A stretch of DNA of 30,085 nt from a virus, in the IMG/VR virus record IMGVR_UViG_3300028027_000168, positions 1 to 30,085 of that record; one strand, 5' to 3'. Positions 902 to 10,803 of this stretch are shown here, in pieces (within the stretch, counting starts at the first letter, position 1; each line of letters begins with the position of its first letter). Position numbers and translations under genes: made by a program. The notes beneath the pieces were generated by a model. The model was not told the origin of the DNA, made no database searches, and was given only the letters and a program-made list of their open reading frames with translations.

Positions 902-1063
902 TTATTTTTGTTTAATTGTGTAAGTATTTCTATCCCAGTTTTTAAGGTTTTTAACCCTATCCATTTCTTTACCATAAAGACCCCAAAAGTACATTGCCCA
1001 TTCGTTAAAGTCAGATGGTCGATCTTTTGGAAAAATTGTTTTGCTAATTCTTAAAGTTTTCAT
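902..1063 (-). CDS. Small hypothetical protein, 53 aa
   Basis: Hand translation from ATG 1063 to TAA 902-904 gives a basic protein starting MKTLRISKTIFPKDRPSDFN and containing EWAMYFWGLYGKEMDRVKNL. It is rich in aromatic residues and lysine, ends TIKQK, and has no membrane segment. No family is recognised. It fills the space between the 66-aa and 77-aa early genes almost exactly, with 12 bases before it and 2 bases after it. The Trp/Tyr-rich composition is unlike random AT-rich translation. Confidence 0.7.
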   Translation of the reverse strand: MKTLRISKTIFPKDRPSDFNEWAMYFWGLYGKEMDRVKNLKNWDRNTYTIKQK

Positions 1064-1075
1064 AATTTCTAGTTT

Positions 1076-1276
1076 TTAAAGTTTATTAATTTGTTCTTTT
1101 ACTTCTTTCCAATATTCAATAGTTTTTACTATGCTTTTTGTATCATAAATAAATAAATGACTTTCTATTATTTCATCTACTATTTTATTTGTAATTAATT
1201 TTGCTTTTTCATCATTTGCAATAATATCTCTAATTATGCTAAAATATATGTGAAAGGCTTTTGATTGTGTATTCAT
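1076..1276 (-). CDS. Member of a small VDEII/YW paralog family, 66 aa
   Basis: The second half (KIVDEIIESH ... IEYWKEVKEQINKL) matches the pattern of two other small proteins in this genome (1670-1888 and 3103-3330): VDEII, a 12-18 residue spacer, then YW-x-x-V-[KR]. Unlike those two it lacks the MTPKEK N-terminus and the Cys-Ala-Ile-Ile stretch before VDEII. The function is unknown. It lies second in the P2 operon. A short GC hairpin (1283-1299) sits directly before its ATG and could affect its translation. Confidence 0.72.
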   Translation of the reverse strand: MNTQSKAFHIYFSIIRDIIANDEKAKLITNKIVDEIIESHLFIYDTKSIVKTIEYWKEVKEQINKL

Positions 1277-1282
1277 AATATT

Positions 1283-1299
1283 GTGCGTTACAGTCGCAC
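1283..1299 (-). other. Short GC-rich hairpin before the 1276 start codon
   Basis: The inverted repeat GTGCG/CGCAC (5 bp, 7-base loop) lies in the 35-base gap between the 72-aa gene (stop 1312) and the 66-aa gene (ATG 1276). It stands out in very AT-rich surroundings. No T-tract follows, so it is not a typical terminator. It could mask the next translation start or stabilise an RNA end. The sequence shows the repeat; any function is a guess. Confidence 0.35.
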
Positions 1300-1311
1300 C
1301 CCTGATTTTAT

Positions 1312-1530
1312 TTAGTTTAAACCTTGTTGTGTCATATAGTCATCAAACATCATATCCATACATTGTTTATTTTCAGTTACTTTTTTCATTAATTTTAAAC
1401 CATTATTAACCCAGTCTTTTAATAATTGTTTCATATCTTCTTCAGTTTCTAAAATGTAGTTATTTAATTTAGCAAACATCATTAAGTTTTCTAATTGCTC
1501 TTGATCTTTTTGTGTAAATTCTGCGTTCAT
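1312..1530 (-). CDS. Hypothetical acidic helical protein, 72 aa; first gene after P2
   Basis: MNAEFTQKDQEQLENLMMFA begins an acidic, methionine-rich, mostly helical protein (KQLLKDWVNNGLKLMKK, then CMDMMFDDYMTQQGLN). No family is recognised. It is the first gene after promoter P2: its ATG lies about 38 bases beyond the -7 box, behind an A-rich leader. That position predicts early, strong expression. Small acidic first-in-operon proteins often act on host factors in phages, but that is only a general tendency. Confidence 0.75.
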   Translation of the reverse strand: MNAEFTQKDQEQLENLMMFAKLNNYILETEEDMKQLLKDWVNNGLKLMKKVTENKQCMDMMFDDYMTQQGLN

Positions 1531-1567
1531 AATCTTTTTTTTTTAGTTATTGTTTCTTTGTACACTA

Positions 1568-1597
1568 CAAATATACATACTTTTTTTAAATAAACAA
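1568..1597 (-). promoter_or_regulatory. Promoter P2, Bacteroidetes type (TTG-N19-TATATTTG)
   Basis: On the minus strand TTG (1597-1595), a 19-base spacer ending AAGTATG, and TATATTTG (1575-1568) match the Bacteroidetes -33/-7 promoter (TTTG, about 19-21 bases, TAnnTTTG). The same spacing and the AAGTATG extension before the -7 box recur at P1 (4149-4180). Transcription would start near 1561 and run into the 72-aa gene. The hairpin at 1625-1660 lies just upstream and would insulate P2 from P1. Confidence 0.8.
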
Positions 1598-1624
1598 GTG
1601 TAAATTTAAAATAAATGTAAAATA

Positions 1625-1660
1625 AAAATTAACTACCTGATTATCAAGATAGTTAATTTT
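1625..1660 (-). terminator. Terminator-like hairpin upstream of P2
   Basis: A perfect 11-bp inverted repeat (AAAATTAACTA/TAGTTAATTTT, 14-base loop) follows the 72-aa paralog gene ending at 1670. On the minus strand the stem runs into TTTTTATTTTACATTT, a broken T-tract. It is AT-rich and therefore weaker than the terminators near 10.1 and 10.8 kb, but its place before P2 matches the hairpin-promoter layout at 4149-4237. Confidence 0.6.
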
Positions 1661-1669
1661 AAAAATAAT

Positions 1670-1888
1670 TCATAGTTTTTCAATTTCTTTGCGTACTAAT
1701 GACCAATATTGCTTAAAAGGATTTGGATATAAGACATCATCCATTGCTTTAATTATCTCATCTACTGCAATTATAGCACATTGTTTGGATACTTCTAATG
1801 GAAGTGTATATCCATCATTATGTTTTGTTGCAAATGTAAGCAACCCAAATTGCTGACATAATTTCAATGCTTTTTCTTTTGGTGTCAT
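1670..1888 (-). CDS. Member of a small VDEII/YW paralog family, 72 aa
   Basis: I place the start at ATG 1888, not the in-frame ATG at 1897. It then overlaps the upstream stop by ATGA, and the product begins MTPKEKALKLC, like the paralog at 3103-3330 (MTPKEKCKELL). A Cys-Ala-Ile-Ile-x-VDEII segment is followed by YWSLVRKEIEKL at the C-terminus. The family is unknown to me. Three copies within 2.3 kb, in two transcription units, suggest duplication followed by divergence. It is the last gene before the hairpin at 1625-1660. Confidence 0.75.
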   Translation of the reverse strand: MTPKEKALKLCQQFGLLTFATKHNDGYTLPLEVSKQCAIIAVDEIIKAMDDVLYPNPFKQYWSLVRKEIEKL

Positions 1889-2100
1889 AAATAACATTTA
1901 AATACGTTTAATACTTTTTCGCTAACAGGCATCTTATAAATAATGAATTTGTTGTAAGTCACTCTGTTTATACTTTCCAAAACTTTCTCCCTTAATGGTG
2001 ACTTTGATTTCAACCCTACTATTATTCTTTGTTGAAATTCAAGTGTAACGAAGCTATCTCTAACCTCGTCACACTTTTGTTGATCTATTAATAATTTCAA
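1885..2100 (-). CDS. Hypothetical protein, 71 aa
   Basis: Starts MKLLIDQQKCDEVRDSFVTL. It is a basic, mostly helical protein with no recognised motif and no membrane segment; it ends KVLNVFKCYL. Both ends overlap neighbours by four bases (ATGA at 2097-2100 with the SSB-like gene and at 1885-1888 with the paralog gene), so translation is probably coupled to the ssDNA-binding protein. A recombination or replication accessory role is suggested only by its position. Confidence 0.72.
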   Translation of the reverse strand: MKLLIDQQKCDEVRDSFVTLEFQQRIIVGLKSKSPLREKVLESINRVTYNKFIIYKMPVSEKVLNVFKCYL

Positions 2101-2435
2101 AATGGTAAATCTTTTGGATCCTCTAAAATAGTATTCTCAACCTTAACCTCGTTAGTCACTGGCTCAATTCTCCAAGCGTCCAAAGATACAAAATTGCTTA
2201 CTATCTGAGTCGTTGGGTTTGTCCAATCACGACCATTTAAATTGCAACTTACATTTACCTGATCATTCACTTTGAATTTGTCTAGTAAAGCACATTTATC
2301 TTTCGTTACTTGAATTTTAAACGTATTTGGGTACGTTTCATCTGTTACCACTTTAAACTCTCTCTTAGAGAAGTTATCACTTACTACTATCGTTTCGTTG
2401 ATCCCAACAATTCGACCTTTAATTTCAATATTCAT
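2097..2435 (-). CDS. DUF3127/SSB-like single-stranded DNA-binding protein
   Basis: The 112-aa protein has the DUF3127 pattern seen in Bacteroidetes: SKREFKVVTDETYPNTFKIQ, then DKFKVNDQVNVSCNLNGRDW, then SLDAWRI, consistent with an OB-fold. An acidic tail ends EDPKDLPF, like the DDIPF tip bacterial SSBs use to recruit partners. It likely coats phage ssDNA during replication or recombination and may recruit host SSB-interacting proteins. It lies downstream of the RAD52/ERF-like annealing protein in the same operon, a usual pairing. The fold is read from pattern similarity, not a search. Confidence 0.8.
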   Translation of the reverse strand: MNIEIKGRIVGINETIVVSDNFSKREFKVVTDETYPNTFKIQVTKDKCALLDKFKVNDQVNVSCNLNGRDWTNPTTQIVSNFVSLDAWRIEPVTNEVKVENTILEDPKDLPF

Positions 2436-2604
2436 ATTTATTTATTATTGGATTACTATTTAAATACTCGTTTGATGTTCCTGTTGTGTCTATATATAAT
2501 GAACTTTCTCGCTCGTTTACATTATACGTTTTACTTTCTTTTCCTTTTTGATATCCCATTAGATAAAATGTAGCTAAAATTAATAAATATATAAAAAATC
2601 TCAT
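2425..2604 (-). CDS. Small membrane-anchored or secreted protein, 59 aa
   Basis: Hand translation from ATG 2604 to TGA 2425 gives a hydrophobic N-terminus (MRFFIYLLILATFYLMGYQK) and a polar tail (GKESKTYNVNERESSLYIDT...). This fits a single membrane anchor or uncleaved signal with the tail outside. The start overlaps the upstream stop by ATGA and the end overlaps the SSB-like start by 11 bases. A membrane protein inside a recombination operon is unexpected; superinfection exclusion is one possibility, with no direct support. Confidence 0.68.
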   Translation of the reverse strand: MRFFIYLLILATFYLMGYQKGKESKTYNVNERESSLYIDTTGTSNEYLNSNPIINKYEY

Positions 2605-3101
2605 ACATTTTTAACCATTATTGACGACTTACTGAATGTTATGATTGGTCTTTGCAATACTTCTCCAGTTGACTCATCTAAACTAGATACTTTTGATAAC
2701 GCAACTTGTTTATATTTGTCCTCAATTTCTTTCAAGTTATCTTTTGCGATTCTCCATTCTTCAATATCTGAAAAGTCAATTAGTCTTCTACCCTCAACTT
2801 TGGTTATCATTTTAGAACCATATTTAAAACTTTTTTCAGTTCTATTTTCAGCTTCTTCAATTGCTAACTCTTGCACATCTCTATTAACTTTATCCGCTAT
2901 GTCTTTTACCTCCTTAGATATAGTGTATAGGCTAAGTGCGTCCAATTCTCCATTTCTAACTGCATTTACCATCATTTCAAAATGATCTTGTAGTGTTATA
3001 ACAGTTGCTTCGGTAACTACCGATAAATGAAAGGGATTTTCAGTTGGTGTATTTTCCCAGTGCATTTGATCTTGTTTATCTATGTCGTTTAAATTTTCCA
3101 T
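2601..3101 (-). CDS. Hypothetical recombination-operon protein, 166 aa
   Basis: I do not recognise this protein with certainty. It has a polar N-terminus with VVTEATVITLQDHFEMMV, a long charged helical centre (about residues 60-90) that may be coiled coil, then RRLIDFSDIEEWRIAKDNLK and KEIEDKYKQVAL. It ends in a less charged tail, PIITFSKSSIMVKNV. Lying between the annealing protein and the SSB-like protein, it may be an accessory factor, in the way of Gp157-type or nuclease-associated proteins of other phages; this is positional inference only. It starts one base after the upstream paralog gene stops. Confidence 0.75.
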   Translation of the reverse strand: MENLNDIDKQDQMHWENTPTENPFHLSVVTEATVITLQDHFEMMVNAVRNGELDALSLYTISKEVKDIADKVNRDVQELAIEEAENRTEKSFKYGSKMITKVEGRRLIDFSDIEEWRIAKDNLKEIEDKYKQVALSKVSSLDESTGEVLQRPIITFSKSSIMVKNV

Positions 3102-3102
3102 T

Positions 3103-3330
3103 TTATTTGCTTTTTTCGATTAATAATTGTTCTTTAACTTCTTGCCAATATAAAGTATATGCTAATTCTAATATGTCATATTTCTTTATTGAATTTATTA
3201 TCTCATCAACTGATATTATCGCACATTCTACGGCGTGAGTATAAAGCATACACATACTTTCATTTTTACAATTTAAATCTACATTGTTCATTTTATGTAG
3301 TAATTCTTTACATTTTTCTTTAGGTGTCAT
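3103..3330 (-). CDS. Member of a small VDEII/YW paralog family, 75 aa
   Basis: Begins MTPKEKCKELLHKM and carries AVECAIISVDEIINSI followed by LYWQEVKEQLLIEKSK. The same blocks occur in 1670-1888 and, partly, in 1076-1276. Its last residues LLIEKSK are also the tail of the upstream annealing protein (LLIEKSKL), encoded by a 19-base direct repeat (3110-3128 and 3337-3355). The start overlaps the upstream stop by four bases. The function is unknown; several cysteines and the conserved YW suggest a small folded domain. Confidence 0.76.
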   Translation of the reverse strand: MTPKEKCKELLHKMNNVDLNCKNESMCMLYTHAVECAIISVDEIINSIKKYDILELAYTLYWQEVKEQLLIEKSK

Positions 3331-3355
3331 AATTTACTTTTTTCGATTAATAATT
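3110..3355. repeat. 19-base direct repeat pair (3110-3128 and 3337-3355)
   Basis: The plus-strand sequence CTTTTTTCGATTAATAATT occurs exactly at both places. Each copy encodes the C-terminal LLIEKSK of its gene (75-aa paralog and annealing protein). The copies are 227 bases apart, so recombination between them would precisely remove the 75-aa gene. Confidence 0.85.
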
Positions 3356-3923
3356 CTTGCATTTCTACACTTACATTGTACTTTGCTTTGATCTGTTCTA
3401 ATGTTCCTTTACCTTCTTTTAAAGCGTCTACGCATCTGATGAAATTAGTTGAACCAACTTGTAAAACTTCTTTAATAATAGGTGGTGCAAACTCTTTTTT
3501 CATTTCTTCAATGTATCTCACATCATCAAATTTACCCATAAAAATATCTGCATTAAAACCTAGTTTTGATATTGCTTTGGTTAAAGCATCTGTTTCGATT
3601 TTCTTTGCAAAATTATCATCTACCATTGTATTTGCTCTATCCATAAATAATTTACAAGAATTTATGATCTCAAACTCACCATTTGGAAAAAAGAAAGTAC
3701 CTTTAAAAACAACTAGATTACATTTTTCAACTAAATCATAACTTAATGATATATCTTTAAACCCCCAAGTTTGACCATAAACTCCAAACTGTTCAGTAAC
3801 TTGCATAATTTGGTATTGTGGTGCTATAGAGGTTATTTCACGACCTCCTAGCTTTGCATTTTTTGTATACTTTGGATTTGTTTTTTCAACTTTATTCCAA
3901 AGTGTTAAATTTTCATTACTCAT
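3327..3923 (-). CDS. Single-strand annealing recombinase, RAD52/ERF superfamily (probable)
   Basis: 198 aa. The N-terminal half has an early conserved segment (LGGREITSIAPQYQIMQVTE), then FGVYGQTWGFKDISLSY and the strand VVFKGTFFFPNGEFE. The diagnostic-looking stretch is KKIETDALTKAISKLGFNAD, followed by IFMGKFDD; it resembles the [K/D]xxxTDALxKAxxxLG block of RAD52/Sak and ERF annealing proteins. Such proteins anneal complementary ssDNA in phage recombination and end repair. The SSB-like protein downstream in the same operon supports this. The exact subfamily cannot be fixed by eye. It is second gene after P1, overlapping the first by four bases. Confidence 0.72.
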   Translation of the reverse strand: MSNENLTLWNKVEKTNPKYTKNAKLGGREITSIAPQYQIMQVTEQFGVYGQTWGFKDISLSYDLVEKCNLVVFKGTFFFPNGEFEIINSCKLFMDRANTMVDDNFAKKIETDALTKAISKLGFNADIFMGKFDDVRYIEEMKKEFAPPIIKEVLQVGSTNFIRCVDALKEGKGTLEQIKAKYNVSVEMQELLIEKSKL

Positions 3924-4123
3924 AACTGTTCGTAAATTAAATCTTTAATATCATTTATTTGTTTTTCACCTAAAATATCTAGTATTTCAGTCTCTTGAAC
4001 ATACACGAATAAATCGTAAATCGTTCCACCTTCCTCAGGTTGCCAATGTGTAGCAGGTTCATATTTATCAATGCTAAATTCACATCTTAATACGACATCT
4101 TTGTAATTGATTGTTTTTTCCAT
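3920..4123 (-). CDS. Hypothetical acidic protein, 67 aa; first gene after P1
   Basis: An acidic small protein starting MEKTINYKDVVLRCEFSIDK, with alternating strands followed by a helix (EKQINDIKDLIYEQL). No family is recognised. Its ATG at 4123 lies about 25 bases beyond the -7 box of promoter P1, so it should be among the first proteins made. It overlaps the annealing protein gene by ATGA. Confidence 0.75.
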   Translation of the reverse strand: MEKTINYKDVVLRCEFSIDKYEPATHWQPEEGGTIYDLFVYVQETEILDILGEKQINDIKDLIYEQL

Positions 4124-4148
4124 AATTAATTTGTTTTAGTTTGTAATA

Positions 4149-4180
4149 CAAAGATACATACTTATTTTTAATATACAACA
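4149..4180 (-). promoter_or_regulatory. Promoter P1, Bacteroidetes type (TGTTG-N19-TATCTTTG)
   Basis: On the minus strand TGTTG (4180-4176), a 19-base spacer ending AAGTATG and TATCTTTG (4156-4149) match the Bacteroidetes -33/-7 consensus. The spacing, the AAGTATG extension and the following GTA/GTAT agree with P2 at 1568-1597, so the pair looks like one phage promoter family read by the host sigma factor. The expected start is near 4142, leaving a leader of about 20 bases for the 67-aa gene. Confidence 0.82.
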
Positions 4181-4205
4181 GTAAACTTAAATTATTTTAA
4201 ATAAA

Positions 4206-4237
4206 AAAAGTGAGATAGTTTTAATTACCTCACTTTT
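4206..4237 (-). terminator. Rho-independent terminator after the endolysin gene
   Basis: The minus-strand transcript forms AAAAGTGAG/CTCACTTTT (9 bp), extended by three pairs (GTA/TAT, one G-T), with an 8-base loop and a run of seven T. It lies 52 bases after the endolysin stop and directly before promoter P1, so it ends the late structural/lysis unit. The flanking A and T runs mean it might also work on the other strand, but no genes lie there. Confidence 0.85.
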
Positions 4238-4288
4238 AATAACTTAACCTAAAACTAAAATATTATGAAATATAAAGATAGTTATTAT

Positions 4289-4693
4289 TTATGGAAGAAA
4301 AAACCTATTTCCTGATTTTGGCGGATTAATTTGGAAATGACACCAAGTCTTAGTAGCTGAGAAATCCTCTAACCATAAGCCAATCTCTTCCATTAGCTTA
4401 ATGTTATCTTTCACCCACGCTTTTAATTTACCATCTGAATCCGAAAAATCAACTGCTCTACCACTTAAATGATTAGATTTCATAGGTACTTTTGGAGGAT
4501 AAATTCCTTTTCTTGCGTATATCTCTAAATGGTGCTTAGTTGTGCGAAGTCCTGATGTTACTATCATAGGTTTTCCGTACGCTACACGAACTTTATTTAT
4601 CTTAACGAGTAAATCATTAAGATTGTTTTGAACATCATTTGGAAGTTCTCCTAACCTAGCTTGATTACTAAGCAATTCATTCATTGTTATCAT
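4289..4693 (-). CDS. M15-family peptidase, endolysin
   Basis: 134 aa with the zinc peptidase pattern of M15 (VanY/D-Ala-D-Ala or L-Ala-D-Glu peptidases). MIVTSGLRTTKHH lies at 43-55, NHLSGRAVDF at 74-83 (His-75 and Asp-82 as zinc ligands), and WCHFQ at 117-121 (His-119 as third ligand). It should cut the peptide stem of host peptidoglycan at lysis. No signal peptide is visible, so a holin is needed, consistent with the small membrane protein gene directly upstream (ATGA overlap). A second in-frame ATG lies at 4684. It is the last gene of the late unit. Confidence 0.9.
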   Translation of the reverse strand: MITMNELLSNQARLGELPNDVQNNLNDLLVKINKVRVAYGKPMIVTSGLRTTKHHLEIYARKGIYPPKVPMKSNHLSGRAVDFSDSDGKLKAWVKDNIKLMEEIGLWLEDFSATKTWCHFQINPPKSGNRFFLP

Positions 4694-4889: not shown

Positions 4890-5504
4890 TTATTCGCTTA
4901 ACATTCTGCCAATTTCATCTGTTTGGTGTTTAAATTCTTTATAATCAAAGTTTAAAAGATTACTTTGTTTTACATAATCAACACCAATATACCCAACAAA
5001 TTTGTTATCTGTAAAAATTGGGGCTATCATTAACGATTTTATACCTTGATTTTTTAAAGCTATTTTTGTTGCTTCTTCTTTTATGTCGTCAACATCTGAA
5101 TATACCATTCTACAAAGCATAACTTCCTGTAAAAATGTAGGAAAAAGGCTTGTAGGTAAGTTCTGTAAATTTGAATTTTCAAAAGAAATACCTCTATTAC
5201 ATACCTCGTTAGTTAGTGATTGGTGGTTCTTATGTTTGCCATCATAGAACGAAACACCGTTATGGAATCTAAAAATATACGATCTATCCGCTCCGTATTT
5301 AAACATCAAATTATTCAACATTTGCTGAATTAATACATTATTAGTTACATCTTCTTTAATTGGGTCTTTTTCTTCAATTTTCTTTTCAACTACTTCGGTT
5401 ATCAATGACTTATAATAAAATAGCACTAACCCTACGAATAGAAGGATTAGAGCTATATTTTTCATTTTACTAAGTTCTGCTAGGATTAATTTAATATTGT
5501 TCAT
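4890..5504 (-). CDS. Membrane-anchored GAF-domain protein
   Basis: 204 aa. One hydrophobic segment at about residues 16-32 (NIALILLFVGLVLFYYKSL) follows a short basic start. A charged linker (VVEKKIEEKDPIKED) leads to a GAF-like domain at about 50-200, with RSYIFRFHNG, GISFENSNLQ, KNQGIKSLMIAPIFTDNKFV and GYIGVDYV. GAF domains bind small ligands or nucleotides and pair with signalling outputs, but no output domain is present. It lies between the receptor-binding genes and the holin, so roles in lysis timing, host sensing or superinfection exclusion are possible; all are inference. The anchor predicts a GAF domain at the cytoplasmic face. Confidence 0.72.
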   Translation of the reverse strand: MNNIKLILAELSKMKNIALILLFVGLVLFYYKSLITEVVEKKIEEKDPIKEDVTNNVLIQQMLNNLMFKYGADRSYIFRFHNGVSFYDGKHKNHQSLTNEVCNRGISFENSNLQNLPTSLFPTFLQEVMLCRMVYSDVDDIKEEATKIALKNQGIKSLMIAPIFTDNKFVGYIGVDYVKQSNLLNFDYKEFKHQTDEIGRMLSE

Positions 5505-10120: not shown

Positions 10121-10153
10121 AAAAAAAAAGGGTATCAAATAAATGACACCCTT
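10121..10153 (-). terminator. Rho-independent terminator after the 191-aa virion gene
   Basis: The minus-strand transcript forms AAGGGTGTCA/TGATACCCTT (10 bp with one G-T pair, 6-base loop) followed by a run of T. It lies 22 bases after the 191-aa gene stop and directly before the next ATG (10116). No new promoter is visible between them, so it probably lowers rather than abolishes expression of the portal block. Confidence 0.88.
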
Positions 10154-10175: not shown

Positions 10176-10751
10176 TTAATCCAATAAACTATCTACAACA
10201 GCTTTTGAACTTGCATAATTTGTAATAAACAAAGAGTTAGGAAGTCTAGGCTCTTTATTGTTAATTGTTGTGAAAGTGAAGTCAAATGCACCTTGTGTAT
10301 CTGCATTGTTTGGGTCTCTTTCAAGAACTGACATTTCCAAACCTGTAGTTAAACCATAGATTTCAAATGCTGAATTTCCTGATACTCCTTTAAAATAGTT
10401 TTCTGTTATAATAACAAATCTACCGTCTTTCATTGAGTTCAATTGTTCTTTAATTTCAGGTGACAAATCAAAACCTTTCATTTGTACAGAATGGTCGAAC
10501 ATATTATTGAAACCAACTTTAACCATCATTGCTTTTGGTGCAATTGAGTTATTTTTACCGTCAATTTGGTAAGCAAATTTTCCAACTGCTAAGACAATGT
10601 CCTCAACTGTTGCTGTGTTAACCGCATCAAAAACGATTGATGAAATGTCATCATAATTAAAGATAACCGCTCTATCACGAGTTCCTCCTTGCATCGGAGT
10701 GTCGCAACTAATTAAAATGTTTGATGCAATCGCACCACATACTACTGACAT
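10176..10751 (-). CDS. Major virion protein, tail tube candidate
   Basis: 191 aa, beta-rich, with VVCGAIASNILISCDTPMQG, AVIFNYDDIS, IYGLTTGLEMSVLERDPNNA, AFDFTFTTINNKEPRLPNSL and FITNYASSKAVVDSLLD. This layout and length fit a tail tube or comparable abundant virion protein rather than an enzyme. It lies between two strong terminators, directly after the major capsid gene, which suggests a transcript pool shared with the capsid and kept apart from portal. I could not match a family; a capsid decoration protein is the main alternative. Confidence 0.62.
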   Translation of the reverse strand: MSVVCGAIASNILISCDTPMQGGTRDRAVIFNYDDISSIVFDAVNTATVEDIVLAVGKFAYQIDGKNNSIAPKAMMVKVGFNNMFDHSVQMKGFDLSPEIKEQLNSMKDGRFVIITENYFKGVSGNSAFEIYGLTTGLEMSVLERDPNNADTQGAFDFTFTTINNKEPRLPNSLFITNYASSKAVVDSLLD

Positions 10752-10774: not shown

Positions 10775-10803
10775 AAAAAAAAGGGAGTTTTAACGCTCCC
10801 CTT
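10775..10803 (-). terminator. Rho-independent terminator after the major capsid gene
   Basis: On the minus strand GGGAG (10800-10796), an 8-base loop and CTCCC (10787-10783) form the core stem, with A-G/T-T flanking pairs, followed by eight T (10782-10775). It starts seven bases after the capsid stop at 10810 and ends before the ATG at 10751. A GC stem this clean is rare in the surrounding sequence. Confidence 0.85.

Follow-up and report, generated by a model that had tools for sequence, protein, structure and literature searches.

The question raised by this locus is whether two similar promoters, each lying behind a hairpin, mark modular points at which one transcription unit of a phage ends and the next one starts, and whether the sequence adjoining their -7 boxes is a phage-specific addition. 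According to the initial annotation both promoters, called P1 and P2, share TTG, a 19-base spacer, the extension AAGTATG and a common -7 box, TAT(C/A)TTTG, and this was confirmed from the sequence of the minus strand:

4149-4178, minus strand: P1 promoter, TTG-TATATTAAAAAT-AAGTATG-TATCTTTG, read from 4178 to 4149
4176-4178, minus strand: TTG of the P1 -33 element, kept in 11/13 P1 islands
4157-4163, minus strand: AAGTATG extension of P1, an exact match to the motif
4149-4156, minus strand: -7 box of P1, TATCTTTG, kept in 13/13 P1 islands
1568-1597, minus strand: P2 promoter, TTG-TTTATTTAAAAA-AAGTATG-TATATTTG, read from 1597 to 1568
1595-1597, minus strand: TTG of the P2 -33 element, kept in 12/12 P2 islands
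1576-1582, minus strand: AAGTATG extension of P2, an exact match to the motif
1568-1575, minus strand: -7 box of P2, TATATTTG, kept in 12/12 P2 islands, with one relative reading TAGATTTG

The span originally given for P2 was exact; the one for P1 (4149-4180) was too long by two bases and ends at 4178. Scanning both strands of the window, i.e., the whole stretch of 30,085 nt analyzed here, yielded P1 and P2 as the only TTG-N19-TANNTTTG sites, and they are also its only exact matches to AAGTATGTATNTTTG. The number of TTG-N19-TANNTTTG cores as such is within chance expectation (1.09 expected; at least two in 28/100 shuffles). What lifts the pair above chance is less this core motif alone than its combination with hairpins at equal spacing, an extension common to both sites and conservation in relatives. 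When aligned to each other, P1 and P2 are alike over about 80 nt, from just past the hairpin into the leader, with a score of 71 compared to a shuffle maximum of 51 (0/500).

Such a shared stretch around TTG might serve as an operator through which a regulator of the phage switches P1 and P2 together, and the 27 nt upstream of TTG are indeed strongly conserved within each cassette type and similar between both. This conservation would be equally well accounted for by an A/T-rich upstream element for RNA polymerase, and dyad symmetry did not exceed that of shuffled sequences, 348/500 and 108/500 of which were at least as good. A dyad operator around TTG was rejected on the latter ground, and joint control by a phage regulator is considered unlikely overall.

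The second component noted initially, a hairpin ahead of each promoter, was also found at the positions given and is stable in folding:

4206-4237, minus strand: P1 hairpin, 12-bp stem and 8-nt loop followed by T7, flagged as terminator-like by the scan
1625-1660, minus strand: P2 hairpin, A/T-rich 14-bp stem and 8-nt loop followed by an interrupted T tract

Folding energies were -13.6 kcal/mol for the P1 hairpin (z = -4.8) and -12.3 kcal/mol for the P2 hairpin (z = -4.5), with no shuffled sequence folding equally well in either case, and the distance from hairpin end to TTG is exactly 27 nt in both cassettes. In the alignment of relatives, 99% of the cells of the P1 hairpin are paired, with two-sided changes at two pairs, and 92% of those of the P2 hairpin, with two-sided changes at four pairs. 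The P1 hairpin shows the composition of an intrinsic terminator, namely a stable hairpin followed by a T tract, and is likely to terminate the late/lysis unit. The P2 hairpin is stable and covarying, yet its stem is poor in G-C pairs and its T tract is interrupted; it is absent from the list of the terminator scan, which demands at least three G-C pairs. It is probably a terminator as well, albeit a weaker one, and termination may be leaky because of its A/T-rich stem and interrupted T tract. In a wider set of 105 intergenic promoters, a terminator-like hairpin was located upstream of 26 and downstream of five, many of the 26 being homologs of P1 or P2. No third cassette was detected in the window, where the strong terminators at 10153-10128 and 10803-10780 are not followed by TTG-N19-TANNTTTG, and no match to a known RNA family was obtained from Rfam for the window.

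Nearly all genes of the phage are encoded on one strand, and its terminase is nearest to those of Flavobacterium psychrophilum phages (~42.7 kb; 54%). The phage is one of Bacteroidota and probably Flavobacterium-related; among named phages no near relatives were found by DNA, and only distant ones by protein. A literature search on transcription in such phages returned nothing useful. The core of P1 and P2 agrees with the promoter described for Bacteroidota (PMC6847099; PMC9723704; PMC7366714). Both -7 boxes, TATCTTTG and TATATTTG, read TAnnTTTG without G at either n (TAHHTTTG), a pattern kept in relatives, and TTG/TTTG is expected ~19 nt upstream, with both spacers being exactly 19 nt long, a distance more frequent than any other in the F. 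aciduliphilum set as well as in the phage set. P1 and P2 possess both boxes of the Bacteroidota sigma-A (sigma-ABfr) promoter, TTTG and TAnnTTTG, together with an A/T-rich spacer, and show no essential difference from it, AAGTATG representing one variant of the spacer end. Judged by its sequence, the core is an ordinary Bacteroidota sigma-A promoter. The RNA 5′ end of such promoters lies 4-5 nt past the box; transcription is predicted to start at ~4144 for P1 and ~1563 for P2, giving leaders of ~21 and ~33 nt.

The extension had been interpreted as a device peculiar to the phage by which the -7 box of the host is strengthened. It is common to both P1 and P2, Flavobacterium chromosomes contain few GTATG sites (7 in 150 genomes), and several other viral contigs carry the extension, including one of 238 kb with at least five near-identical copies. 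However, TG before the box is a feature of the host: in 21 Flavobacterium genomes TTG-N19-TATNTTTG was enriched (1710 sites versus 712 for the reversed pattern), and TG adjoined the -7 box at 215/1710 of these sites compared to 28/712 in the control. Full AAGTATG also occurs in cellular Bacteroidota promoters, and at 16/97 sites a tRNA gene follows within 250 bp. Moreover, it is not reliably retained at the same places in relatives, being present at only 2/13 P1 sites, though 11/13 retain TG, and at 9/12 P2 sites (5/8 without the sites found by the pattern scan). AAGTATG, GAATATG, GAGTTTG, AATGTAG, TAATGTA and AGAGTTG all occur among close relatives, and the extension is the part of the promoter that varies between them. 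The preset check, whether close relatives lack the motif at corresponding positions, gave a split outcome: the -7 box (13/13 for P1, 12/12 for P2) and TTG (11/13 and 12/12) are retained, the extension often not. Based on the comparisons with host genomes and relatives, a phage-specific device was rejected as very unlikely; TG adjoining the -7 box rather appears to be a common trait of Flavobacterium promoters.

Comparison with relatives extends to the regions around the promoters, which comprise the following features:

4124-4288, minus strand: P1 cassette, the full intergenic region from the endolysin stop codon to the next start codon, a conserved island
4289-4693, minus strand: endolysin (peptidase M15), ended by the P1 hairpin; four other families take its place in relatives
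3920-4123, minus strand: gene directly behind P1 (67 aa, family F12), with other families or extra genes in relatives
3327-3923, minus strand: second gene behind P1, similar to annealing proteins/exonucleases (phrog_7838; in Pseudomonas phage PseuP_222 a Rad52-like annealing protein)
1531-1669, minus strand: P2 cassette, the full intergenic region between a 75-aa and a 72-aa gene, a conserved island

Identity of the P1 cassette is 79-92% in 12 relatives, where homology usually ends at the adjoining genes, and that of the P2 cassette 81-97%. The conserved stretches, 4284-4117 and about 1674-1522, sit between unrelated genes in relatives, with five lysis genes in front of P1, five cargo states behind it and six cargo states behind P2. 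The proposal of a modular point ending one unit and starting the next is supported by the covarying hairpins, the conserved terminator-promoter islands and the gene turnover on both sides. The comparisons also suggest a picture that goes beyond what a single sequence could reveal, namely constant cassettes between swapped genes.

All this might still reflect ordinary operon punctuation, i.e., two sigma-A promoters behind two terminators that are selected for transcription only, with the adjoining genes being replaced by unrelated illegitimate recombination in which the cassette has no part. The same anatomy would be expected, the islands could persist merely because promoters are needed, only two cassettes were found per ~35-kb genome, and other boundaries are mosaic too, homology restarting at 3487, 3143, 1077 and 319. 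On the other hand, the likeness of P1 and P2 reaches well past the promoter core, and further evidence comes from the P2 slot:

1089-1537, minus strand: exchanged block behind P2, comprising the genes at 1312-1530 (72 aa) and 1076-1276 (66 aa, except for its last codons), shared without any difference by L045 and L047
1059-1074, minus strand: leader repeat AACTAGAAATTATGAA, where the constant gene that follows the slot begins
902-1063, minus strand: constant 53-aa gene of family F3, MKTLRISKTIFP..., behind the slot in 12/12 P2 loci

The longest exact matches of the block with the relatives L045 and L047 are 445 and 449 bp, and its flanks differ by 10-30% among the three phages (mostly 70-90% identity), a pattern from which one recent exchange behind P2 is evident. 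That the block starts 3-7 bp ahead of the first start codon behind P2 argues against an uninvolved cassette, as does the cargo of L002 and L045, which has a copy of the leader repeat on either side. In the other 10/12 P2 genomes at least one side of the slot lacks the repeat or has a degraded form of it, which favors mere punctuation; in L042, L046, L049 and L146 the 53-aa gene directly follows P2. Punctuation alone is considered a serious alternative at somewhat less than even odds.

We favor, with a probability of roughly 0.7, the interpretation that P1 and P2 are host-recognized, probably early terminator-promoter cassettes which insulate and frame slots for accessory genes and functionally resemble the PeSL (promoter early stem-loop) cassettes of T4-like phages. 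They would represent a single type of regulatory cassette, present twice, with its parts in the order intrinsic terminator, 27 nt of A/T-rich DNA, host sigma-A promoter with TG at the -7 box and short leader. P1 would halt the upstream lysis-gene unit and P2 the upstream recombination/SSB operon, each restarting transcription for the unit downstream, probably soon after infection since only the sigma-A RNA polymerase of the host is required. The slots bordered by the cassettes would hold lysis genes ahead of P1 and small cargo genes behind either promoter, all of which change between relatives while the cassette stays, and recombination may be helped by the cassettes or the repeated leaders, perhaps via the annealing protein of the phage itself. 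More tentatively, and with considerable doubt, Bacteroidota phages might have evolved, independently of T4-like phages, terminator-promoter exchange joints at which cargo, flanked by an invariant promoter leader and an invariant downstream gene, is inserted, lost or swapped via short leader repeats, with the annealing protein encoded behind P1 carrying out the joining.

The locus would be a clear example of a PeSL-like arrangement in a phage that is not T4-like, built on a promoter other than sigma-70, and is therefore relevant to the question of how general modular exchange at regulatory cassettes is among phages. In uncultured Bacteroidota phages, early accessory genes (host take-over, anti-defense) may be sought in the slots behind P1 and P2, with the cassettes serving as search anchors.

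PeSLs were reportedly first studied in T4-like phages by Arbiol et al. in 2010 and Comeau et al. in 2014. According to a paper citing both studies (PMC4503421), they consist of a stem-loop terminator and a host-type early promoter, a composite also seen in P1 and P2 with their equal 27-nt gap, for which early timing is predicted. PeSLs of one genome are multiple and resemble each other, as do P1 and P2 (~80-nt alignment, 0/500 shuffles), though these are two copies only. They border variable small ORFs, and gene content is shuffled around the conserved cassettes; P1 and P2 likewise border genes differing between close relatives, with shuffled gene content around them. A further PeSL trait is recombination through the cassettes, which may or may not extend to P1 and P2, the exchanged block beginning just behind P2. 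In contrast to the high cassette density in the shuffling regions of T4-like myoviruses, with sigma-70-type early promoters, the phage analyzed here contains two cassettes per ~35-kb genome, has a Bacteroidota sigma-A promoter and is not T4-like, no T4-like genes being found among the window proteins scanned. In the haloarchaeal virus HGTV-1, a promoter-like box plus inverted repeat ahead of many ORFs has been proposed to be PeSL-like (PMC3950731). That motif resembles P1 and P2 in joining a promoter box with an inverted repeat, and differs in its archaeal TATA-like promoter and many copies. Cluster K mycobacteriophages contain start-associated sequences (SAS/ESAS), a repeated leader at the starts of small accessory genes. 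These differ from the leader repeat described here in sequence, hosts and arrangement, but share with the P2 slot the placement of a repeated leader where accessory genes begin.

The window, a virus record of 30,085 bases, carries almost all of its genes on the minus strand, and the two cassettes P1 and P2 consist of the following elements:

4206-4237, minus strand: hairpin of P1
4149-4178, minus strand: promoter of P1, TTG-TATATTAAAAAT-AAGTATG-TATCTTTG, spacer 19 nt
1625-1660, minus strand: hairpin of P2
1568-1597, minus strand: promoter of P2, TTG-TTTATTTAAAAA-AAGTATG-TATATTTG, spacer 19 nt

The core promoter motif alone is not improbable because the window is so A/T-rich (1.09 sites expected by chance); no further TTG-N19-TANNTTTG site was found in the window. 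Both hairpins are far more stable than shuffled sequences, the distance from hairpin end to TTG is 27 nt in both cassettes, and their alignment over about 80 nt exceeds all 500 shuffles. These features confirm the initial annotation's description of hairpin-promoter pairs sharing TTG, a 19-nt spacer and AAGTATG.

P1 is preceded by an M15-peptidase endolysin gene and followed by a 67-aa gene and an annealing-protein/exonuclease-like gene, and is therefore located between the lysis and recombination modules. P2 sits inside a block of small genes, behind a small phrog_21441 gene within an operon containing an SSB-like gene; further round the genome, the right-hand end of the record carries primase- and helicase-like genes. 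The small unknown protein family phrog_21441 has three copies in the window (3103-3330, 1670-1897 and 1076-1276); in relatives its members turn up in various places, frequently as the second cargo gene. Near the lysis genes, 4890-5504 encodes a protein with weak GAF-domain similarity (phrog_14038), which is unusual in a phage. Elsewhere, 325-669 encodes a 114-aa protein weakly similar, below the Pfam cut-off, to the DnaA C-terminal DNA-binding domain. In the structural region, strong terminator hairpins (10128-10153 and 10780-10803) flank the gene 10176-10751, and no sigma-A-type promoter was found behind either. The terminase shares 54% identity with its counterpart in Flavobacterium psychrophilum phages about 42.7 kb long, a similarity suggesting that the host is Flavobacterium or a related genus.

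The primary sigma factor of Bacteroidota is known to use the promoter TTG-N19-TAnnTTTG. In F. johnsoniae the box reads TAHHTTTG, transcripts begin 4-5 nt beyond it and leaders average 33 nt (PMC6847099); promoter data from F. psychrophilum and Bacteroides are consistent with this form. Summed from a per-genome table, 21 Flavobacterium genomes contain 1710 TTG-N19-TATNTTTG sites vs 712 for the backwards-read pattern; TG precedes the box at 215 vs 28 of these (12.6% vs 3.9%), so that TG beside the -7 box is an enriched host trait. With a 19-nt spacer, TG right before TATNTTTG is several times over-represented in these genomes (G001, G006-G025) and makes up an extended -7 form of the promoter. 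The complete AAGTATG form was found in at least 119 stretches of cellular genomes. Among the matches listed, 97 sites were not excluded by name as other phyla, the phylum of the last 39 stretches being assumed rather than read from titles; 69 of the 97 are intergenic and 16 have a tRNA gene within 250 bp downstream, compared with 0.4% of positions in the background. Among the same matches, 18 sites belong to named other phyla, and 16 of these fall within coding sequence; together with the unassigned sites they number 22, not one of which has a tRNA gene nearby. GTATG is rare in Flavobacterium (7 sites in 150 genomes, five of them intergenic), with four of the intergenic sites apparently ahead of RNA genes. 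Taken together, these occurrences identify AAGTATG as an allowed variant of the host promoter; its earlier interpretation as a phage-specific strengthening of the host -7 box is therefore abandoned. An otherwise unrelated 238-kb contig, IMGVR_UViG_3300043425_001539 (loci L148 and L151), repeats a promoter with the same extension: seven near-identical copies of TTGCCAGnTyGyrAAAAGTwTGTATATTTG, then TATATAA, in 23 kb (about 207-230 kb).

In relatives, the cassettes were found through sequence similarity, independently of the motif, except for four P2 sites that came from a motif scan and are thus biased. The non-redundant islands (13 for P1 including the window, 12 for P2) derive from metagenomic records, some of which are fragments and in which strains may be mixed, and the numbers are small. 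The expectation that the motif recurs at the same places holds for the -7 box, retained in every island (once as TAGATTTG at P2), and mostly for TTG (11/13 P1, 12/12 P2), but not for AAGTATG, which is often replaced (present at 2/13 P1 and 9/12 P2 sites, or 5/8 P2 sites without the motif-fetched ones). TG precedes the box at 11/13 P1 sites. Both hairpins keep pairing through compensatory changes, with 99% of cells paired and two pairs changed on both sides at P1, and 92% and four pairs at P2. In two relatives (L137 and L002) the P2 stems differ in sequence and the 27-nt stretch behind them is identical.

The conserved DNA spans 4284-4117 at P1 and about 1674-1522 at P2, and in most relatives DNA homology ends on one or both sides of these islands. 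Clustering of neighbouring ORFs gave five different lysis-gene families before P1 and, after it, five cargo states preceding the 67-aa gene and the annealing protein. The cargo slot behind P2 is in every case followed by the constant 53-aa gene F3.

States of the P2 cargo slot (F, protein family; L, locus in a related viral record)
Cargo absent: L042, L046, L049, L146
F20+F0: window, L045, L047
F24+F0: L044, L137
F35: L002
F49: L145
F54+F55: L153

Conserved islands amid changing neighbours, together with the compensated hairpin pairing, uphold the proposed modular switch point. Locus L002 belongs, with L043 and L055, to IMGVR_UViG_3300033984_000265 (38,023 bp), whose P2 core recurs at 51-80 and 34826-34855, giving a genome unit of about 34.8 kb; this genome is probably circular or circularly permuted. 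Its two P1-P2 stretches have different first genes and represent two strain versions in one record.

Punctuation is the simplest account of the cassettes: host RNA polymerase would transcribe the preceding unit up to the hairpin, stop, and restart at the promoter 27 nt beyond. Since host sigma-A alone would be needed, the promoters could fire at once after injection. Plain punctuation has a somewhat less than even chance. It overlaps with the reading that we favor at a probability of roughly 0.7, namely terminator-promoter cassettes that also frame variable gene slots: it makes the same claims about promoters and terminators and rejects only a role in exchange. An identical block of 445-449 bp (1089 to 1533/1537), common to the window, L045 and L047, has flanks of mostly 70-90% identity; it begins 3-7 bp upstream of the first start codon behind P2, stops just before the F3 leader, and represents a recent exchange of the two-gene cargo. 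The leader AACTAGAAATTATGAA is found at both cargo ends in L002 and L045, and intact only downstream of the cargo in the window. The cassettes might plausibly also assist recombination, by way of the sequence they share, the repeated leaders and the annealing protein whose gene lies behind P1; this active-joint version has a fairly low probability.

The proposed terminator-promoter cassettes framing variable slots resemble the promoter early stem-loop (PeSL) cassettes of T4-like phages, which combine a stem-loop terminator with an early promoter and are considered to mediate small-gene shuffling (work cited in PMC4503421); a PeSL-like motif has also been proposed for the haloarchaeal virus HGTV-1 (PMC3950731). 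P1 and P2 lie outside the T4 PeSL set because phage group, promoter type and copy number (only two per genome) differ, whereas the anatomy and the turnover of neighbouring genes are alike.
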